Assembly: GCA_019359435.1 (NCBI GenBank) | Contig: JAHHHI010000069.1 | Coordinates: 1-64,000, forward strand | Length of the DNA: 64,000 nt | Source: Kaiparowitsia implicata GSE-PSE-MK54-09C | Lineage (GTDB): Bacteria; Cyanobacteriota; Cyanobacteriia; Elainellales; Elainellaceae | Direction of reading: 5' to 3' | In this document: one piece after another, positions 20,482 through 61,734 of the stretch | How positions within the stretch are numbered: position 1 is the first letter of the stretch | How the letters are laid out: each line of letters begins with the position of its first letter | The notes under the pieces: generated by a model | What the model was told of the DNA's origin: nothing | The model's database searches: none | What the model saw: the letters and a program-made list of their open reading frames with translations, nothing else | Translations under genes and position numbers: made by a program

Positions 20482-21924
20482 ATGACCTTTTCATTCACGA
20501 GCCTCGGGCTCTCTGAGACACGCGCGCGTCAGCTCGAAAAAGCAGGGTTTACTGCCCCCACGCCGATTCAGGCGCAGGCGATTCCCCATTTGCTATCGGG
20601 ACGCGATGTGGTGGGACTCGCGCAAACCGGGACGGGTAAAACAGCAGCATTTTCGTTGCCGATCCTGGAGCAAATTGATCCCAATAATTCCGCTGTGCAG
20701 GCGCTGATTCTAACCCCGACGCGCGAACTCGCCGTTCAGGTGTATCAAGCAATTCACGATATGAATGAGGATCGCCGCATTAAAGTGCTGGCTGTATATG
20801 GCGGACAGGCCATTGATCTGCAACTAAGCAAGCTGCGCCGAGGAGTGCAAGTTGTAGTAGGCACACCCGGGCGGGTGATCGATCTGCTGAATCGCGGTGA
20901 CCTGCGCCTGAATCAAGTGAACTGGCTAGTGCTGGATGAAGCCGACGAGATGCTCAACATGGGCTTCATTCAAGATGTGGAGAAAATCCTCAGTCAGTCC
21001 CCCCCAGAGCGGCAGACGGCGTTTTTCTCTGCCACGATGGAGTCGTCCATTCGGGAACTGGCGGCAAAGTTTTTGCGATCGCCCATCACCGTCAGCATTG
21101 AACAGCCAAAGGCGGCTCCTACTCGAATCAACCAGGTGGCCTATATGGTGCCCCGAGGCTGGAGCAAGGCCCGCGCCCTGCAGCCCATCATGGAACTTCA
21201 AGCGCCAGAATCGGCACTCATTTTTGTGCGCACTCGTAAGACTGCGGCAGATTTGACTCGCCAACTGCAGGCCGCAGGCTACAGCGTCGATGAGTATCAT
21301 GGCGACTTAAGCCAAGCCCAGCGAGAACGGCTATTGCTCCGATTCCGTCAGCGGCAGGTGCGTTGGGTGGTTGCCACCGACATCGCTGCGCGGGGGTTGC
21401 ATGTTGATGACCTCAGCCATGTGGTGAATTTCGATATGCCCGACAGCGTTGAAAGCTATGTTCACCGCATTGGGCGGACTGGCCGCGCTGGAAAGGAAGG
21501 TACCGCCATTTCGCTGGTGTTGCCGTTTGATCGCCGCAAACTGCGCGACATCGAACACCACATTCGTCAGCGGTTGGAGATCGGAGACATTCCGACACGG
21601 GCTGAGATTGAAGCCCGCCATTTGGAAACACTACAGTCGCAATTGCGGGAAGCACTGGGGGGCGATCGCCTAGCCTCGTTCCTTCCCATCGCGACTGAAC
21701 TTAGCGAAGAATACGACATGCGGGCGATCGCCGCAGCGGCCCTACAGATGGCCTACGACGAAACCCGCCCTGCCTGGACACGGCAAGAGCAAAGCTGGGT
21801 CGACGAAGATAAGCAGCAGCGTAATTCAGAAGCACCCAAACTGCGGCCTGGTAGTCGGTCTAAGCCAAACAAGCGATCGCGCCCTTCTTCAAACAATCGC
21901 TCCACTCCTTCACCTCGCGGCTAG
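20482..21924 (+). CDS. crhR: DEAD-box RNA helicase, CrhR type
   Basis: A 480-residue ATP-dependent RNA helicase. Ordered motifs: Q motif TAPTPIQ, motif I AQTGTGKT (47-54), Ia PTRELA, II DEAD (152-155), III SAT, V ATDIAARGLHVDD and VI HRIGRTGR (328-335). A DeaD/CrhR-like middle domain and a basic Ser/Pro/Arg-rich tail follow. Its place directly behind rimO is that of CrhR, the redox- and cold-regulated helicase of Synechocystis. The ribosome-binding site AAGGAG lies across the 9-bp gap after the rimO stop, indicating coupled expression. The tail is variable and likely RNA-binding. Confidence 0.93.
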   Translation: MTFSFTSLGLSETRARQLEKAGFTAPTPIQAQAIPHLLSGRDVVGLAQTGTGKTAAFSLPILEQIDPNNSAVQALILTPTRELAVQVYQAIHDMNEDRRIKVLAVYGGQAIDLQLSKLRRGVQVVVGTPGRVIDLLNRGDLRLNQVNWLVLDEADEMLNMGFIQDVEKILSQSPPERQTAFFSATMESSIRELAAKFLRSPITVSIEQPKAAPTRINQVAYMVPRGWSKARALQPIMELQAPESALIFVRTRKTAADLTRQLQAAGYSVDEYHGDLSQAQRERLLLRFRQRQVRWVVATDIAARGLHVDDLSHVVNFDMPDSVESYVHRIGRTGRAGKEGTAISLVLPFDRRKLRDIEHHIRQRLEIGDIPTRAEIEARHLETLQSQLREALGGDRLASFLPIATELSEEYDMRAIAAAALQMAYDETRPAWTRQEQSWVDEDKQQRNSEAPKLRPGSRSKPNKRSRPSSNNRSTPSPRG

Positions 21925-22384
21925 CAGCACAGTGTGCGATAGGCTGAGCGCCTCATCTAGAGTTCAGCACAGTCTAAGCTCTGGATGAGGTTCAAAGGGT
22001 TGGAGCAGTGCCAAAGGGTTTGGTACATGTGCATCCACTGGGTTGCCAAGCCAGCTTGAACCAAACGCAAAAACGTTGCGTTGTTTCCTGGCTAGTGGTT
22101 CGCAGAGAATAACAATGTGCGGCGGGGCTAAGCCTCGCCGCATAATTGCATTAAACCTGCAAAAAGTTTGGTTTTTGTATAAGCGGCGCGGAGTTTGATA
22201 AAAGCTTCGCTTGAGGTAAAACCCAAAATGTGCAGCAGAACATTTCTGCATTGGCCGTCTGATCAATTAAGTAAAACGGTAATAGCGGAAGAATGTAAAT
22301 GCCTTAAACTGTGCTGCTTGCTACGCGGTAATGCGGTTTGGCGTTAGTTCAGCCTTGCGCTACAAAACTACAGTATCTAAACGC
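21925..22384. other. crhR trailer with several hairpins; possible small RNA region
   Basis: 460 bp with no protein-like frame. Two clear hairpins are AACGCAA/TTGCGTT at 22064-22082 and an 11-bp GC-rich stem at 22118-22142 (TGCGGCGGGGC/GCCTCGCCGCA). Neither is followed by a T-run. The first good terminator comes only at 22385-22422, so either crhR has a very long 3' end or a separate non-coding transcript ends there. Confidence 0.4.
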
Positions 22385-22422
22385 AAAAGGAAGCTTGCAT
22401 CATTTGCAAGCTCCCTTTTTTT
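22385..22422 (+). terminator. Intrinsic terminator
   Basis: The stem pairs AAAAGG-AGCTTGCA (22385-22399) with TGCAAGCT-CCTTTTTT across a 5-base loop and ends in a run of seven T. This is a textbook intrinsic terminator on the plus strand, 460 bp beyond crhR. Confidence 0.85.
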
Positions 22423-22463
22423 AGGATTTGGTTCTACAACAAGAACTGGGCTAGGCTCTATTT

Positions 22464-22587
22464 AACGTCAGTTTGGGTTAAGAGGGTTTTGGGGCATCGC
22501 GCGTCGCGCGATGCCCCAAAACCCTTAATGTGCCGTGCGCGTCGCGCACGGCACATTAAGGGTTTGAGCTTATCCCGAACTCAGGTT
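22464..22587. repeat. Hairpin-bearing repeat element, copy 1 (two large palindromes)
   Basis: The ends are related inverted repeats: AACGTCAGTTTGGG (22464-22477) and CCCGAACTCAGGTT (22574-22587). Between them are two perfect palindromes: 20-base arms 22484-22503/22505-22524 around T22504, and 23-base arms 22519-22541/22543-22565 around T22542. They overlap in AAACCC, so the two structures compete. Both share the core CGCGTCGCG. The right end is almost identical to that of the element at 24869-24940. It sits directly downstream of the DUF2267 gene on the minus strand. A MITE-like or REP-like origin, or a termination role, is possible. Confidence 0.75.
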
Positions 22588-22595
22588 ATTTAAAA

Positions 22596-23132
22596 TTAAG
22601 CTTGCTGCCACAGTCGCAGCACTTGCTCAGGCAGCCATTCGGCAATTTCCTGAATGCGCTCGTCTGAAAGCTCAGCCTTGGTCGCAGTAAAAACAGCACT
22701 TACGGCTTGCTCACGATCAATGTTCCGGGGCAGCCCACCTTCGTTTGCAACACGGAATAAAAATCGATCAGAGTCGATTTTGAAGATCCCCGGCCCTTGC
22801 CAGGGTGGACGCACCCGGCTGAGGAAGCTAACAATCGGGTTGGTGTCGTGCCAGAGCTGTGCAACGTCCATTTGGAGCGCTTTGTCGTCAGTCGGCATGA
22901 CTTCCCCTTGTAGCTCAGACTCCACACGATCTGAGGCCTCAGTGGTCATCAGATCACGCATTACGCGAAACACGACTTCGGTAAAGTCTCGAGCGTCATA
23001 CAAGTCAGCAAATCCGCCTTTGACAGCAACCTGCTCTAGAAATGAACGGTGCTCGTCAGCAATAACAGCTCTTGGATCTTCTACTTCCGTGGGATCAATT
23101 TCTGGAATGACTTTTACAGGTTTATCAGACAT
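22596..23132 (-). CDS. DUF2267 domain protein
   Basis: About 178 residues of soluble, acidic, helical sequence. Two DUF2267-like halves are visible: a first around [20 protein letters not shown], and a second around [20 protein letters not shown] ending [14 protein letters not shown]2267 proteins are small and uncharacterised, and are often linked to stress or gas-vesicle-like contexts. The ATG at 23132 ([14 protein letters not shown]) is chosen; the frame could extend to 23234, but that adds an atypical 34-residue leader. The repeat element at 22464-22587 begins 8 bp after the stop. Confidence 0.75.
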
Positions 23133-23581: not shown

Positions 23582-24190
23582 ATGCGCTCTGATGAAGAAA
23601 TTTCCCACTTGGCGAATTTGATGCCAGCGTCGGGGCGAATGTATTGCAAGATTATAGATCGCCCGTCGCAGCGGGGCGTGATTGCGGCTGACTTGCCCAA
23701 GCCCTGGCAGCAAAGTCGGCCTGTTTTTATCAACTTTGATCTATGGCAGGAGTTGCCTCGGTCTCAGCGAGATATGCTGTTCCTCCGCACGGTGTGCTGG
23801 GCCACCACTACCCAGCTTCTAAAGCTGAACTGGCGACAAGGGGCGATCGCCCTTGGCCTATTGGGGACGGCGGTAGAACTGGCGCAGCGCGATGTGATGG
23901 GCGTGATGGTGGGTGCGGGGCTGACGGCTTGGGCGGGCTACCAGGTGTGGAAGGGCACTCGCAGCTCTGCGCGTGAGATTGAAGCCGATGAAGGGGCGAT
24001 CGCGATCGCCAAACTGCGCGGCTATGACGAACAAGCCGCTGCCCGCGCGTTGCTAGCCGCAATCGAAACTGTGTCCAGCATCGAAAACCGGGTTGGGCTA
24101 GATTTTGTAGAACTGCTGCGCTGCCAAAATCTCCGCACGATCGCGGGGTTGTCTTCTGTTGAGGTGCCGCTTGATTTGCGCCAACCTTAA
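23582..24190 (+). CDS. DUF3318 family protein
   Basis: A 202-residue cyanobacterial protein of the DUF3318 family, function unknown. It starts with SDEEISHLANLMPASGRMYC, and contains the conserved VFINFDLWQELPRSQRDMLF. A hydrophobic region of two helices (GAIALGLLGTAVELA, GVMVGAGLTAWAGYQVW) then leads to a helical C-terminal part with EIEADEGAIAIAKLRGYDE. The E-I-E-A-D-E region recalls the zinc-metalloprotease-like arrangement of DUF3318, but no HExxH is present. It is followed by a strong hairpin. Confidence 0.8.
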   Translation: MRSDEEISHLANLMPASGRMYCKIIDRPSQRGVIAADLPKPWQQSRPVFINFDLWQELPRSQRDMLFLRTVCWATTTQLLKLNWRQGAIALGLLGTAVELAQRDVMGVMVGAGLTAWAGYQVWKGTRSSAREIEADEGAIAIAKLRGYDEQAAARALLAAIETVSSIENRVGLDFVELLRCQNLRTIAGLSSVEVPLDLRQP

Positions 24191-24219
24191 TCAGCAGGTT
24201 TAGCGAGAAGAACCAAAAA

Positions 24220-24260
24220 TCAGTGAGGGGATGTTTACTTGGTAAACATCCCCTCACTGA
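24220..24260. terminator. Bidirectional hairpin, probable terminator
   Basis: Perfect 19-base arms (24220-24238 and 24242-24260) around the loop TTG, lying between the convergent ends of the DUF3318 gene and the small membrane protein gene. No strong T-run follows, but the stem is long, and its position between convergent genes favours transcript termination on both strands. Confidence 0.65.
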
Positions 24261-24297
24261 TGTAACTGATAGTGGGTTGTTGATATTGAGTCAAAAC

Positions 24298-26802: not shown

Positions 26803-27162
26803 GGTTGTCGTTAAGATTGGCAGGTATGGGGGGTAGCGTTGGGCAGCGGGTTTCGTCGCCGAGTTTGAAAGCTGGAGCGCAGAAGGCATCCAAAATGGGA
26901 TAGAGGGGCGATCGCCCCTCTATCAGCCGAGTGATTGAGCCGAGTGATACAGCTCAGTGATCCAGTCGAGTTAATTCGAGTTAATTAGTCTAGTTTCAAT
27001 CTATCGCTCTTCCTTGCTCCTCGACTGAACTCTACATTACAGCTCCACATCTGCGCCTATGATACGCATCCCCGCATCTCCCTCCGTTCAGGCTGCTAAG
27101 ATAGGCTGCAACCAGGGTGCAGATTCTTCGAGTCTGGCTGAATGGGGTAGTTGAGCACCGCC

Positions 27163-60239: not shown

Positions 60240-60635
60240 ATGTCTGCAGTAACCGATGAAATTTTAGAAAAGTTGAAAACCCTTTCGCTGCTTGAAGCGT
60301 CTGAGTTGGTCAAGCAAATCGAAGAAGCCTTTGGCGTGACCGCGGCTGCTCCAGCTGGCGGCATGATGATGATGGCACCTGGAGCAGGTGGCGCGGCCGC
60401 CGCTGAAGAAGTCGAAGAGCAAACTGAATTTGATGTCGTGCTGGATGAAGTTCCTGCCGATAAGAAGATTGCAGTGCTTAAGATTGTGCGTGAATTGACC
60501 GGCCTTGGCTTGAAAGAAGCGAAGGAAGTGGTTGAATCTGCACCTAAAGCCATCCAGGAGGGCATTGCAAAAGATGCCGCAGAAGAAGCGAAGAAAAAGC
60601 TGGAAGATGCTGGTGGCAAAGCGTCTGTCAAGTAG
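60240..60635 (+). CDS. rplL: 50S ribosomal protein L7/L12
   Basis: 131 residues: an N-terminal dimerisation helix ([20 protein letters not shown]), a Met/Gly/Ala hinge, and the C-terminal domain [20 protein letters not shown] ... [16 protein letters not shown]. It recruits translation factors. The strong terminator at 60680 closes the cluster. Confidence 0.98.
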
Positions 60636-60679
60636 GTTCGTCACTTTAGGCCGATCTAACGTTAGTTTACCAAATGCCT

Positions 60680-60718
60680 AAAACCGTGCTGTTCGCGTCG
60701 CGAACAGCACGGTTTTTT
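60680..60718 (+). terminator. Terminator of the rplKAJL cluster
   Basis: Perfect 18-base arms (60680-60697 and 60699-60716) around one T, with the CGCGTCGCG core, followed by a run of T. The same core occurs in the palindromes at 22484-22565. Confidence 0.9.
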
Positions 60719-61094
60719 GTTGTTTCATCCCTACAACACGGAGCCGAAACAGCCACCGAACTCCTGCGAAACAAATTCCATGGGTAAGGCTGAAACCCTT
60801 GGTAGTCCAATTTTTTGTTTTTTAGCATTTTCTTGTCCCTCGGTATTAGAGACTCACGCCAAGCTAAGAAAACGCATTTTCTATCTGCTTCCTTGGGCGG
60901 CTTCCTTGAGGTAGTGGGCGCGTATCCGAACGCCTGCAACCTTGTTGGGGCCTTAGGCTGAACTTACGTCAAAATATCTTGTACTGAACATCGGTGGGCA
61001 AGCAATCAGTCCCATTGACTGGAACAATGTTTTGAGGACAGGCGGAAAATGCTACAACACAGTCTATTTCAGCTTTGAGCACATACATAATCCC
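60719..61094. other. Spacer after rplL, no gene recognised
   Basis: 376 bp downstream of the ribosomal cluster. Short frames show no motifs. It leads into the decayed DUF1989 region on the opposite strand. Confidence 0.4.
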
Positions 61095-61578
61095 CTAGGC
61101 GACTGACTGGGGCAACAAATTCGGTGTAGAGCCCTTCAGTAACAGGATATTCATGAATAAGTTTAAGGGATTGGGAACTTCGGGCGGGATCAGAGAAAGT
61201 TCGCCAAGGGCCGTATGTAGGTTGTCGGCGTAGTTATCGTGATTGGGAACTCCGAGCAGTTCGTAGCGATCGCGATCGCACGCAGCAATTAACGTGTCAT
61301 GAATGCCGGGCGAGGCGTCTTCGACCAAGGTGAGGATGGGACGACGGTGGTCGGTATAGAGGATGTCGCCAACTTTTGGGATGATTTTGCCGAGGATGAA
61401 TTGCGCCAGGTGATTCGGGATCAATTACTCGGGTTGTCGACGGACACCATCGCCTCGATTGCAGGGAGAGATTCAATATTGGAGTTCCTATCTGTAGCTG
61501 GAATTTAGAGAATTGGTATAAGACGGTCAGATGGGGCCATAGATTGAAATGTTGAAACACCATACTGATGCGGGCAAG
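61095..61578 (-). pseudogene. Decayed DUF1989 (carboxyguanidine deiminase-like) gene fused to an ABC ATPase scrap
   Basis: On the minus strand, 61095-61424 encodes GDILYTDHRRPILTLVEDAS, GIHDTLIAACDRDRYELLGV and NPLNLFMNILLLKG, the C-terminal signature of DUF1989 proteins. This family includes the carboxyguanidine deiminases CgdA/CgdB of the guanidine degradation pathway. The frame lacks its N-terminal part: a TAA lies just upstream and an alternative frame carries TTRVIDPESPG. Further upstream, 61519-61578 encodes LARISMVFQHFNLWPHLTVL, the Q-loop of amino-acid-type ABC ATPases, and then breaks off. Two unrelated genes are thus truncated and juxtaposed. Confidence 0.65.
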
Positions 61579-61734
61579 CCTGAGTTCGATAGCGCTGTTT
61601 CAGCCCTACGAGGCAGATCTAAACAACGGAAAACTGTTCTGTCCGCGTTGCAGGTAGAACGGTTTTATACATTTGCCAAAACTCACGTTCTTCCAAGATT
61701 TTCCGAGTCGGAGGAATTATCCCATATCAATTCT

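Follow-up and report, generated by a model that had tools for sequence, protein, structure and literature searches.

That hairpin stems stay perfect even as their sequence drifts has long called for an explanation. Among the closest described systems are the minute loop inversions at stem-loops of chloroplast spacers, which come from single loci compared between species; the REP palindromes, which are tied to Y1-type TnpA-REP; and the MITEs of the IS982 family, a family whose ends start with AC, one linked MITE having reportedly been described from Cardinium (PMC9769881). For short inverted repeats, a study of yeast genes has described how arms are homogenised and spacers inverted (PMC8604942), and template switching has been proposed for rRNA genes (PMC8794818). 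In the latter study, from 2022, compensating changes with loop inversion are extremely rare (six cases in its Table 1), the loops are called conserved, and its strongest evidence for template switching in short-stem maintenance is called circumstantial (PMC8794818).

Here we describe MITE-1, a 122-bp element with one copy in the window, by which we mean the whole stretch of DNA analysed (64,000 nucleotides; C76:1-64000 of a 6.72 Mb cyanobacterial genome, hereafter G000). Like IS982-family MITEs, it has 6-8 bp target duplications, ends that begin with AC, and a PF13612-bearing insertion sequence (IS) with the same ends; unlike them, its interior is filled by two overlapping perfect palindromes. 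With REP and REPIN elements (PMC3116915 and PMC8266576) it shares the character of small dispersed palindromes, some of them paired, but it differs in the end inverted repeats, target duplications and DDE-type transposase found here. Its small loop flips recall those of chloroplast hairpins, except that MITE-1 is present in many copies in one genome, and arm homogenisation and spacer inversion are common to it and to quasipalindrome correction (the Ripley model). In contrast to the rRNA and yeast cases, the events reported here are read from a single mobile palindrome pair, sampled in 125 copies across three genera, and the loops flip often.

We consider it likely that MITE-1 is a MITE moved by an IS982-type transposase, with its arms kept matched and its loops flipped by template switching (quasipalindrome correction). 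That mechanism is already known; the MITE-1 copies are a natural record of a known, hard-to-observe copying error, and in the open-licence literature we found neither MITE-1 nor a comparable record in a mobile palindrome described. Through a MITE family, a single starting sequence is available as many replicate palindromes, in which target duplications mark the insertion and loops vary freely. How fast point mutation, arm copying and loop flipping proceed relative to one another can then be estimated from the copies.

The palindrome pair is part of a transposable element

The copy in the window is laid out as follows.

22465-22586, no strand: MITE-1 copy (122 bp), one of 59 copies of exactly this length taken from the window's genome
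22459-22464, + strand: target-site duplication TATTTA, left copy, read from the sequence (flank-duplication test)
22587-22592, + strand: target-site duplication TATTTA, right copy, read from the sequence (flank-duplication test)
22465-22482, + strand: left terminal inverted repeat ACGTCAGTTTGGGTTAAG, from the end-motif scan; near-identical ends on a 979-bp IS (L091, L092)
22569-22586, - strand: right terminal inverted repeat (CTTATCCCGAACTCAGGT on the + strand), from the end-motif scan
22483-22525, no strand: hairpin 1, 43 bp, perfect arms of 21 bp around a central T at 22504; shows both matched double changes and inverted loops
22519-22565, no strand: hairpin 2, 47 bp, perfect arms of 23 bp around a central T at 22542; shows both matched double changes and inverted loops
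22519-22525, no strand: 7-bp segment common to hairpins 1 and 2, where changes can show up in all three arms

Two perfect hairpins with centres 38 bp apart thus lie between the ends ACGTCAGTTCGGGTTAAG and CTTATCCCGAACTCAGGT. An earlier note on this DNA had reported perfect palindromes here, and they are real and far above chance: the window holds five perfect hairpins (arms of at least 11 bp, loops of at most 9) against none in each of five first-order Markov randomisations. The 47 bp given there for the second palindrome stands (22519-22565), whereas the first measures 43 bp (22483-22525) rather than 41, and the overlap is 7 bp rather than six. The statement that the two cannot both fold applies to full-length stems only; the predicted single-strand folds contain both hairpins, one of them trimmed at the overlap, within a stem of the two ends. 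The predicted fold of MITE-1 as RNA has an energy of -82.7 kcal/mol (z -11.8), and that of the DNA strand -52 kcal/mol.

The core CGCGTCGCG, noticed earlier around the central T of this pair and of a third palindrome, occurs on the two strands of the window at three sites only, which are indeed the centres of the three palindromes. Across the genome the core shows no clear enrichment, with 284 sites where its reversed control has 262, and we dropped it as a genome-wide motif in its own right. As for cores with matched flanks, which the earlier note had proposed to count, 9 of the 18 sites on contig C55 (370,563 bp, scanned in its entirety) have matched arms of at least 16 bp. The same contig carries 42 perfect hairpins against 1, 1 and 0 in three randomisations. 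In the genome as a whole, many of the core sites (first 100 of 284) are paired exactly 38 bp apart. A genome-wide scan for the MITE-1 end motif, allowing at most one mismatch, gave 336 matches where the reversed motif gave 19, and among the 100 matches listed there are many facing pairs 99 bp apart.

Extracted stretches are exactly 122 bp long, with the same centre spacing, in 59 of 67 cases in G000 and, in two other genera, in 35 of 37 (G003) and 31 of 37 (G013); copies were mostly taken from the best 40 scored of the 190-976 first-look candidates per search, and diverged copies are under-sampled. The 59 copies of G000 have 59 distinct left and 58 distinct right flanks. Exact flank duplications of 6-8 bp, mostly T...A, accompany 51 of these 59 copies and none when right flanks are exchanged, a control that gave no duplication longer than 3 bp; target duplications of 6-8 bp were likewise found at 28 of 35 copies in G003 and 16 of 31 in G013, the latter with one more of 9 bp. 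Terminal inverted repeats, a target-site duplication, short length, the lack of a transposase gene and a large number of copies are all found here, and the palindrome pair is part of one copy of a non-autonomous transposon (MITE), as the earlier guess of transposition had anticipated.

The same ends occur on a 979-bp IS, which is why we speak of a MITE: end pairs at this distance in L091 and L092 enclose a transposase piece matching PF13612 (DDE_Tnp_1_3; E 4e-59), presumably the mark of the IS982 family. These shared ends point to an IS982 derivation of MITE-1, and an IS982-type transposase recognising the ACGTCAGTTCGGG ends probably moved it in trans. Both 979-bp copies are broken, with stops ahead of a 170-aa open piece. 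A third near-identical transposase match lies on C97, with only one end found there, and on C7 there is a related, diverged IS with an open frame of 250 aa, whose paired ends are 988 bp apart.

Several copies deviate from the standard length. Three 46-bp forms (L093, L096 and L105, the last with one further base change) lack 76 bp of MITE-1, which fits a deletion between the two direct repeats AGGGTTT on either side of the hairpin block, and the hairpin-less L093 retains a TAGTTA duplication. An 84-bp copy (L097) fits a 38-bp deletion fusing hairpin 1 to hairpin 2, plus further base changes. Deletions of such kinds are expected from replication slippage across hairpins. In three 124-bp variants (L071, L076 and L106), each arm of hairpin 1 has one base inserted, and the two insertions match (GGAGGC / GCCTCC).

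Matches to MITE-1 (E of at most 0.001) occur in 13 of 79 genomes, its own included, and outside G003 and G013 they fall mostly on the ends. These two genomes hold full 122-bp families, with best matches of 76% (G003) and 87% identity (G013), and one of the two families has many different yet matched stem pairs. Between the consensus arms of G000 and G003, 15 differing pairs are Watson-Crick in both, and two pairs near the outer edge of hairpin 2 differ without being Watson-Crick in both. Twelve copies from the MAG 'Synechococcales cyanobacterium M55_K2018_004' share flanks with G013, marking the same or a near-identical genome, and were left out. Elements with similar ends and other interiors (about 162 and 100 bp) were seen in other genera (L116, L128 and L133 in G009; L113, L117, L125, L131 and L136 in G037 and G061).

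Arm changes occur in matched pairs

Pair counts are based on the 125 copies of exactly 122 bp (59, 35 and 31 from G000, G003 and G013, an order kept below), 96 of them distinct; 8 of 67, 2 of 37 and 6 of 37 stretches of other lengths were left out. Changes were placed on neighbour-joining trees of the distinct 122-bp sequences (34 of 59, 31 of 35 and 31 of 31) by one parsimony reconstruction. Columns of the shared segment were counted in both hairpins. One double event was seen to enter twice for a single branch, and leaving the segment out does not alter the main results.

Stem cells are Watson-Crick in 2450 of 2478, 1381 of 1470 and 1244 of 1302 cases. True partner columns changed on the same branch 11, 18 and 19 times (48 in total), against 0, 1-3 and 0-2 times when partners were slid by 1-4 columns; without the shared segment the counts are 8, 12 and 15 against 0, 0-2 and 0-1. 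Together with the loop flips described below, this excess (48 against 0-3 per genome) gives arms that look as hairpin-templated correction, suggested in the earlier note, would leave them. Events leading from one pair to another number 12, 17 and 23, and the stem events overall comprise these 52 doubles, 74 one-sided changes, 14 restorations and 6 others. With 74 one-sided changes persisting beside 52 doubles, arm correction is slow or partial.

Matched pair types that are private to one sampled copy number 23 (4, 7 and 12), in 15 copies, some of them representing one event (as in L169) and five belonging to one diverged copy, L208; spread from another sampled copy is therefore not their explanation. 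Stem columns changed about as often as ends and edges, at 0.43 against 0.41, 0.74 against 0.72 and 1.17 against 1.31 changes per column. Of the one-sided mismatch types in MITE-1, 26 are G-T, 30 are A-C and 13 are others.

Loops are inverted and some changes reach three arms

Loop events total 68, of which 38 are exact switches to the reverse complement (12 of 18, 14 of 27 and 12 of 23) and 30 are not inversions. Sorted by size, exact inversions account for 27 of 42 one-base, none of 11 two-base and 11 of 15 three-base events, and the 27 one-base switches among the 38 (T to A, G to C) are of a kind that point mutation could also make. Three-base flips include TTC/GAA and AAC/GTT in G003 and ACC/GGT in G000. 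Eight backbones, five in G000 and three in G003, are common to at least two copies with differing loops: four show exact flips (one also with a GTT variant), three show flips with other changes, and the remaining one (ACC and GAT) is not a flip. The window copy itself differs from L035 by one loop flip and is otherwise identical to it. One-base switches included, inversions per hairpin (6, 7 and 6) exceed changes per non-loop column (0.42, 0.73 and 1.22) roughly 5-14 fold.

In the segment shared by the two hairpins, changes matched in all three arms were found in nine copies, L019, L107, L082, L083, L087 and L088 in G000 and L169, L181 and L182 in G013, which represent fewer independent events because changes are inherited (two sites in G000, three in G013). 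Two-way states in this segment occur in L176 and L165, and a one-way state in L173. At the G000 site formed by columns 19/61/95, the first change is present in many other copies without the other two (17 G-T cells), and the three-way state there was therefore probably reached in steps.

An older element lies behind the rplL gene

The third palindrome of the window belongs to a different, older element with similar ends, MITE-2, whose remains are listed below.

60659-60766, + strand: decayed copy of MITE-2, by alignment to MITE-2; right boundary approximate
60680-60716, + strand: hairpin 1 of this relic, still perfect, 18-bp arms, central T, terminator-like, 44 bases after the rplL stop
60240-60635, + strand: rplL (ribosomal protein L7/L12), context; homologue in 30 of 30 genomes searched, own included
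22265-22398, + strand: strongly decayed stretch aligned to MITE-2, directly left of the MITE-1 copy; boundaries approximate

Two more decayed stretches aligned to MITE-2 lie in the window at 61573-61707 and 186-319. The rplL palindrome was dropped as a member of MITE-1 on account of its different interior. MITE-2 has the layout ACGTCAGTTCGGCAAATGCCTAAAACCGTGCTGCC-GCGNCGC-... and occurs in C55 and elsewhere; the best 40 of 169 candidates were scored, and these are mostly 75-87% identical to the query. After 2 of 46 matches (opposite-strand partial self-matches) and then 5 of 44 out of register were left out, 39 copies remained, in which both partners are off consensus in 41 cells, 38 of them complementary, against 16.2 expected under independent arms. 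With slid partners there are 6-19 such cells, 3-7 of them complementary.

The gene upstream is one that we take to be rplL from its protein sequence. The palindrome at 60680-60716 is a GC-rich hairpin followed by a T-run after the gene end, and it was the sole terminator-like call in a scan of 60560-60860 (one, against an average of 0.5 in shuffles). The earlier note had it acting as the rplL terminator, and on these sequence features it plausibly does, although as part of its own older MITE and not of the same element as the pair. Of 30 rplL loci, 26 could be located. In 15 of these, the window's included, a terminator-like hairpin lies within 160 bases, and the MITE-2 motif is present in that of the window alone; it is therefore plausible that the MITE-2 hairpin replaced an earlier rplL terminator.

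Transversions are over-represented among matched changes

Double events comprise 31 transversions and 21 transitions, one-sided events 11 and 63 (Fisher 2.7e-7). The ratio of transversions to transitions is 23:13 for doubles and 4:38 for one-sided events without the shared segment (p 6.6e-7), and 25:24 and 13:56 on distinct types (p 3e-4). Expressed by outcome, 31 of 42 transversions among these stem events ended matched, as did 21 of 84 transitions. The pooled stem events, 84 transitions to 42 transversions, are close to the 60 to 35 of the ends and edges, and the mutational input therefore looks alike. In MITE-2 the corresponding transversion to transition ratios are 16:22 for doubles and 14:70 for one-sided cells (p 0.006, the cells not being independent), and 8:9 and 12:23 on distinct types. 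To our knowledge, plain template switching does not predict doubles so rich in transversions.

How the arms are kept matched

Under template switching, the strand that a polymerase extends along a palindrome would fold back on itself or switch to the opposite template strand, and the wrong arm would be copied. Such copying would rewrite one arm from the other, with new mutations becoming matched double changes, and would turn the loop into its reverse complement. A single mutation in the 7-bp middle segment, which is part of both hairpins, could also spread to three arms. Repetition over many copies would keep the arms matched while their sequence drifts. Matched arm changes above independence and loop inversion, two marks of quasipalindrome correction, are both found in MITE-1. 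Taken as a whole, the flipped loops, the matched changes private to single copies and the three-way states argue that one arm is copied from the other. We infer that replication template switching is the cause, in which case no RNA function would be needed. Homologues of SbcD and of the ExoVII large subunit were found in the window's genome, and loss of either as the cause of the palindromes was dropped since both are present; in G003 no SbcD match rose above the cut-off.

The arms might instead be matched by mismatch repair in an extruded cruciform, with cruciform resolution rather than a polymerase flipping the tips. Such repair would also account for the loop flips, would explain the stronger matching of transversions better than template switching does, and is in keeping with the strong predicted fold of the DNA strand. 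It would require cutting and rejoining for the loop flip, however, and assumes the extrusion of 43-47 bp palindromes in vivo, and we regard it as possible but unlikely. Equally tentative is the idea of a hairpin proof-reading that discriminates by mismatch type and favours transversions for matching. If true, it would add to plain template switching a mismatch-sensing step on extruded hairpins, and mobile palindromes would be self-repairing DNA.

We think it improbable that mismatched copies are removed by selection at transposition for a folded single strand, a three-way junction of the ends and two hairpins. Such a junction is indeed predicted, and the constant 38-bp centre spacing and 122-bp length in all three families (59/67, 35/37 and 31/37) are what this selection would maintain; but hairpin-less 46-bp forms exist, L093 among them with its target duplication, and neither loop flips nor private doubles are explained.

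Compensatory mutations selected for an RNA hairpin, whether a terminator or an mRNA stabiliser, would require no special DNA process. The very stable predicted RNA fold given above speaks for such selection, as do the terminator-like hairpin 1 of MITE-2 after rplL and the rarity of one-sided transversions relative to transitions; in MITE-2, where G-T cells number 41 and A-C cells 29, there may be a weak RNA effect. Exact loop inversions, however, are not explained by RNA pairing, and transversion swaps outnumber transition swaps even though transversions cannot pass via a G-U pair. In MITE-1, moreover, G-T and A-C are about equally common among the one-sided mismatch types (26 and 30), whereas in RNA only the former, as G-U, would pair, and per column the stems are about as changeable as the ends and edges. 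The earlier suggestion of a family of terminator modules finds no support for the pair: a terminator scan of 21900-22700 called neither MITE-1 hairpin, their right flanks are TAATGTGCCG and GAGCTTATCC, and the pair at 22483-22565 was dropped as a candidate for intrinsic terminators because no T-run directly follows either hairpin. Selection on RNA is thus an improbable explanation of the matched arms.

Ectopic gene conversion between copies in either orientation could spread variants and mimic correction, and it is favoured by the dozens of near-identical copies and by the ability of a palindrome to pair in either orientation, which would yield loop flips, but it cannot create new matched changes, and with 23 types private to one copy of our sample (an unread donor being possible) we hold it to be very improbable.

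Other palindromes

The window contains a further perfect hairpin at 24219-24261, with 20-bp arms and a TTG loop, which is unlike MITE-1 and MITE-2 and lies 28 bases beyond the ORF at 23582-24190. The HIP1 octamer GCGATCGC forms the centre of perfect palindromes, with arms of up to 21 bp, at 26899-26924 of the window and at L222:4464-4505 and L224:8702-8741, and others at positions 144438, 284091 and 323660 of C55; HIP1 sites may seed matched palindromes or sit in them. At L226:10030-10086 (C55 110030-110086), 28-bp arms around one central base form another perfect palindrome, which is not a MITE-1 copy.
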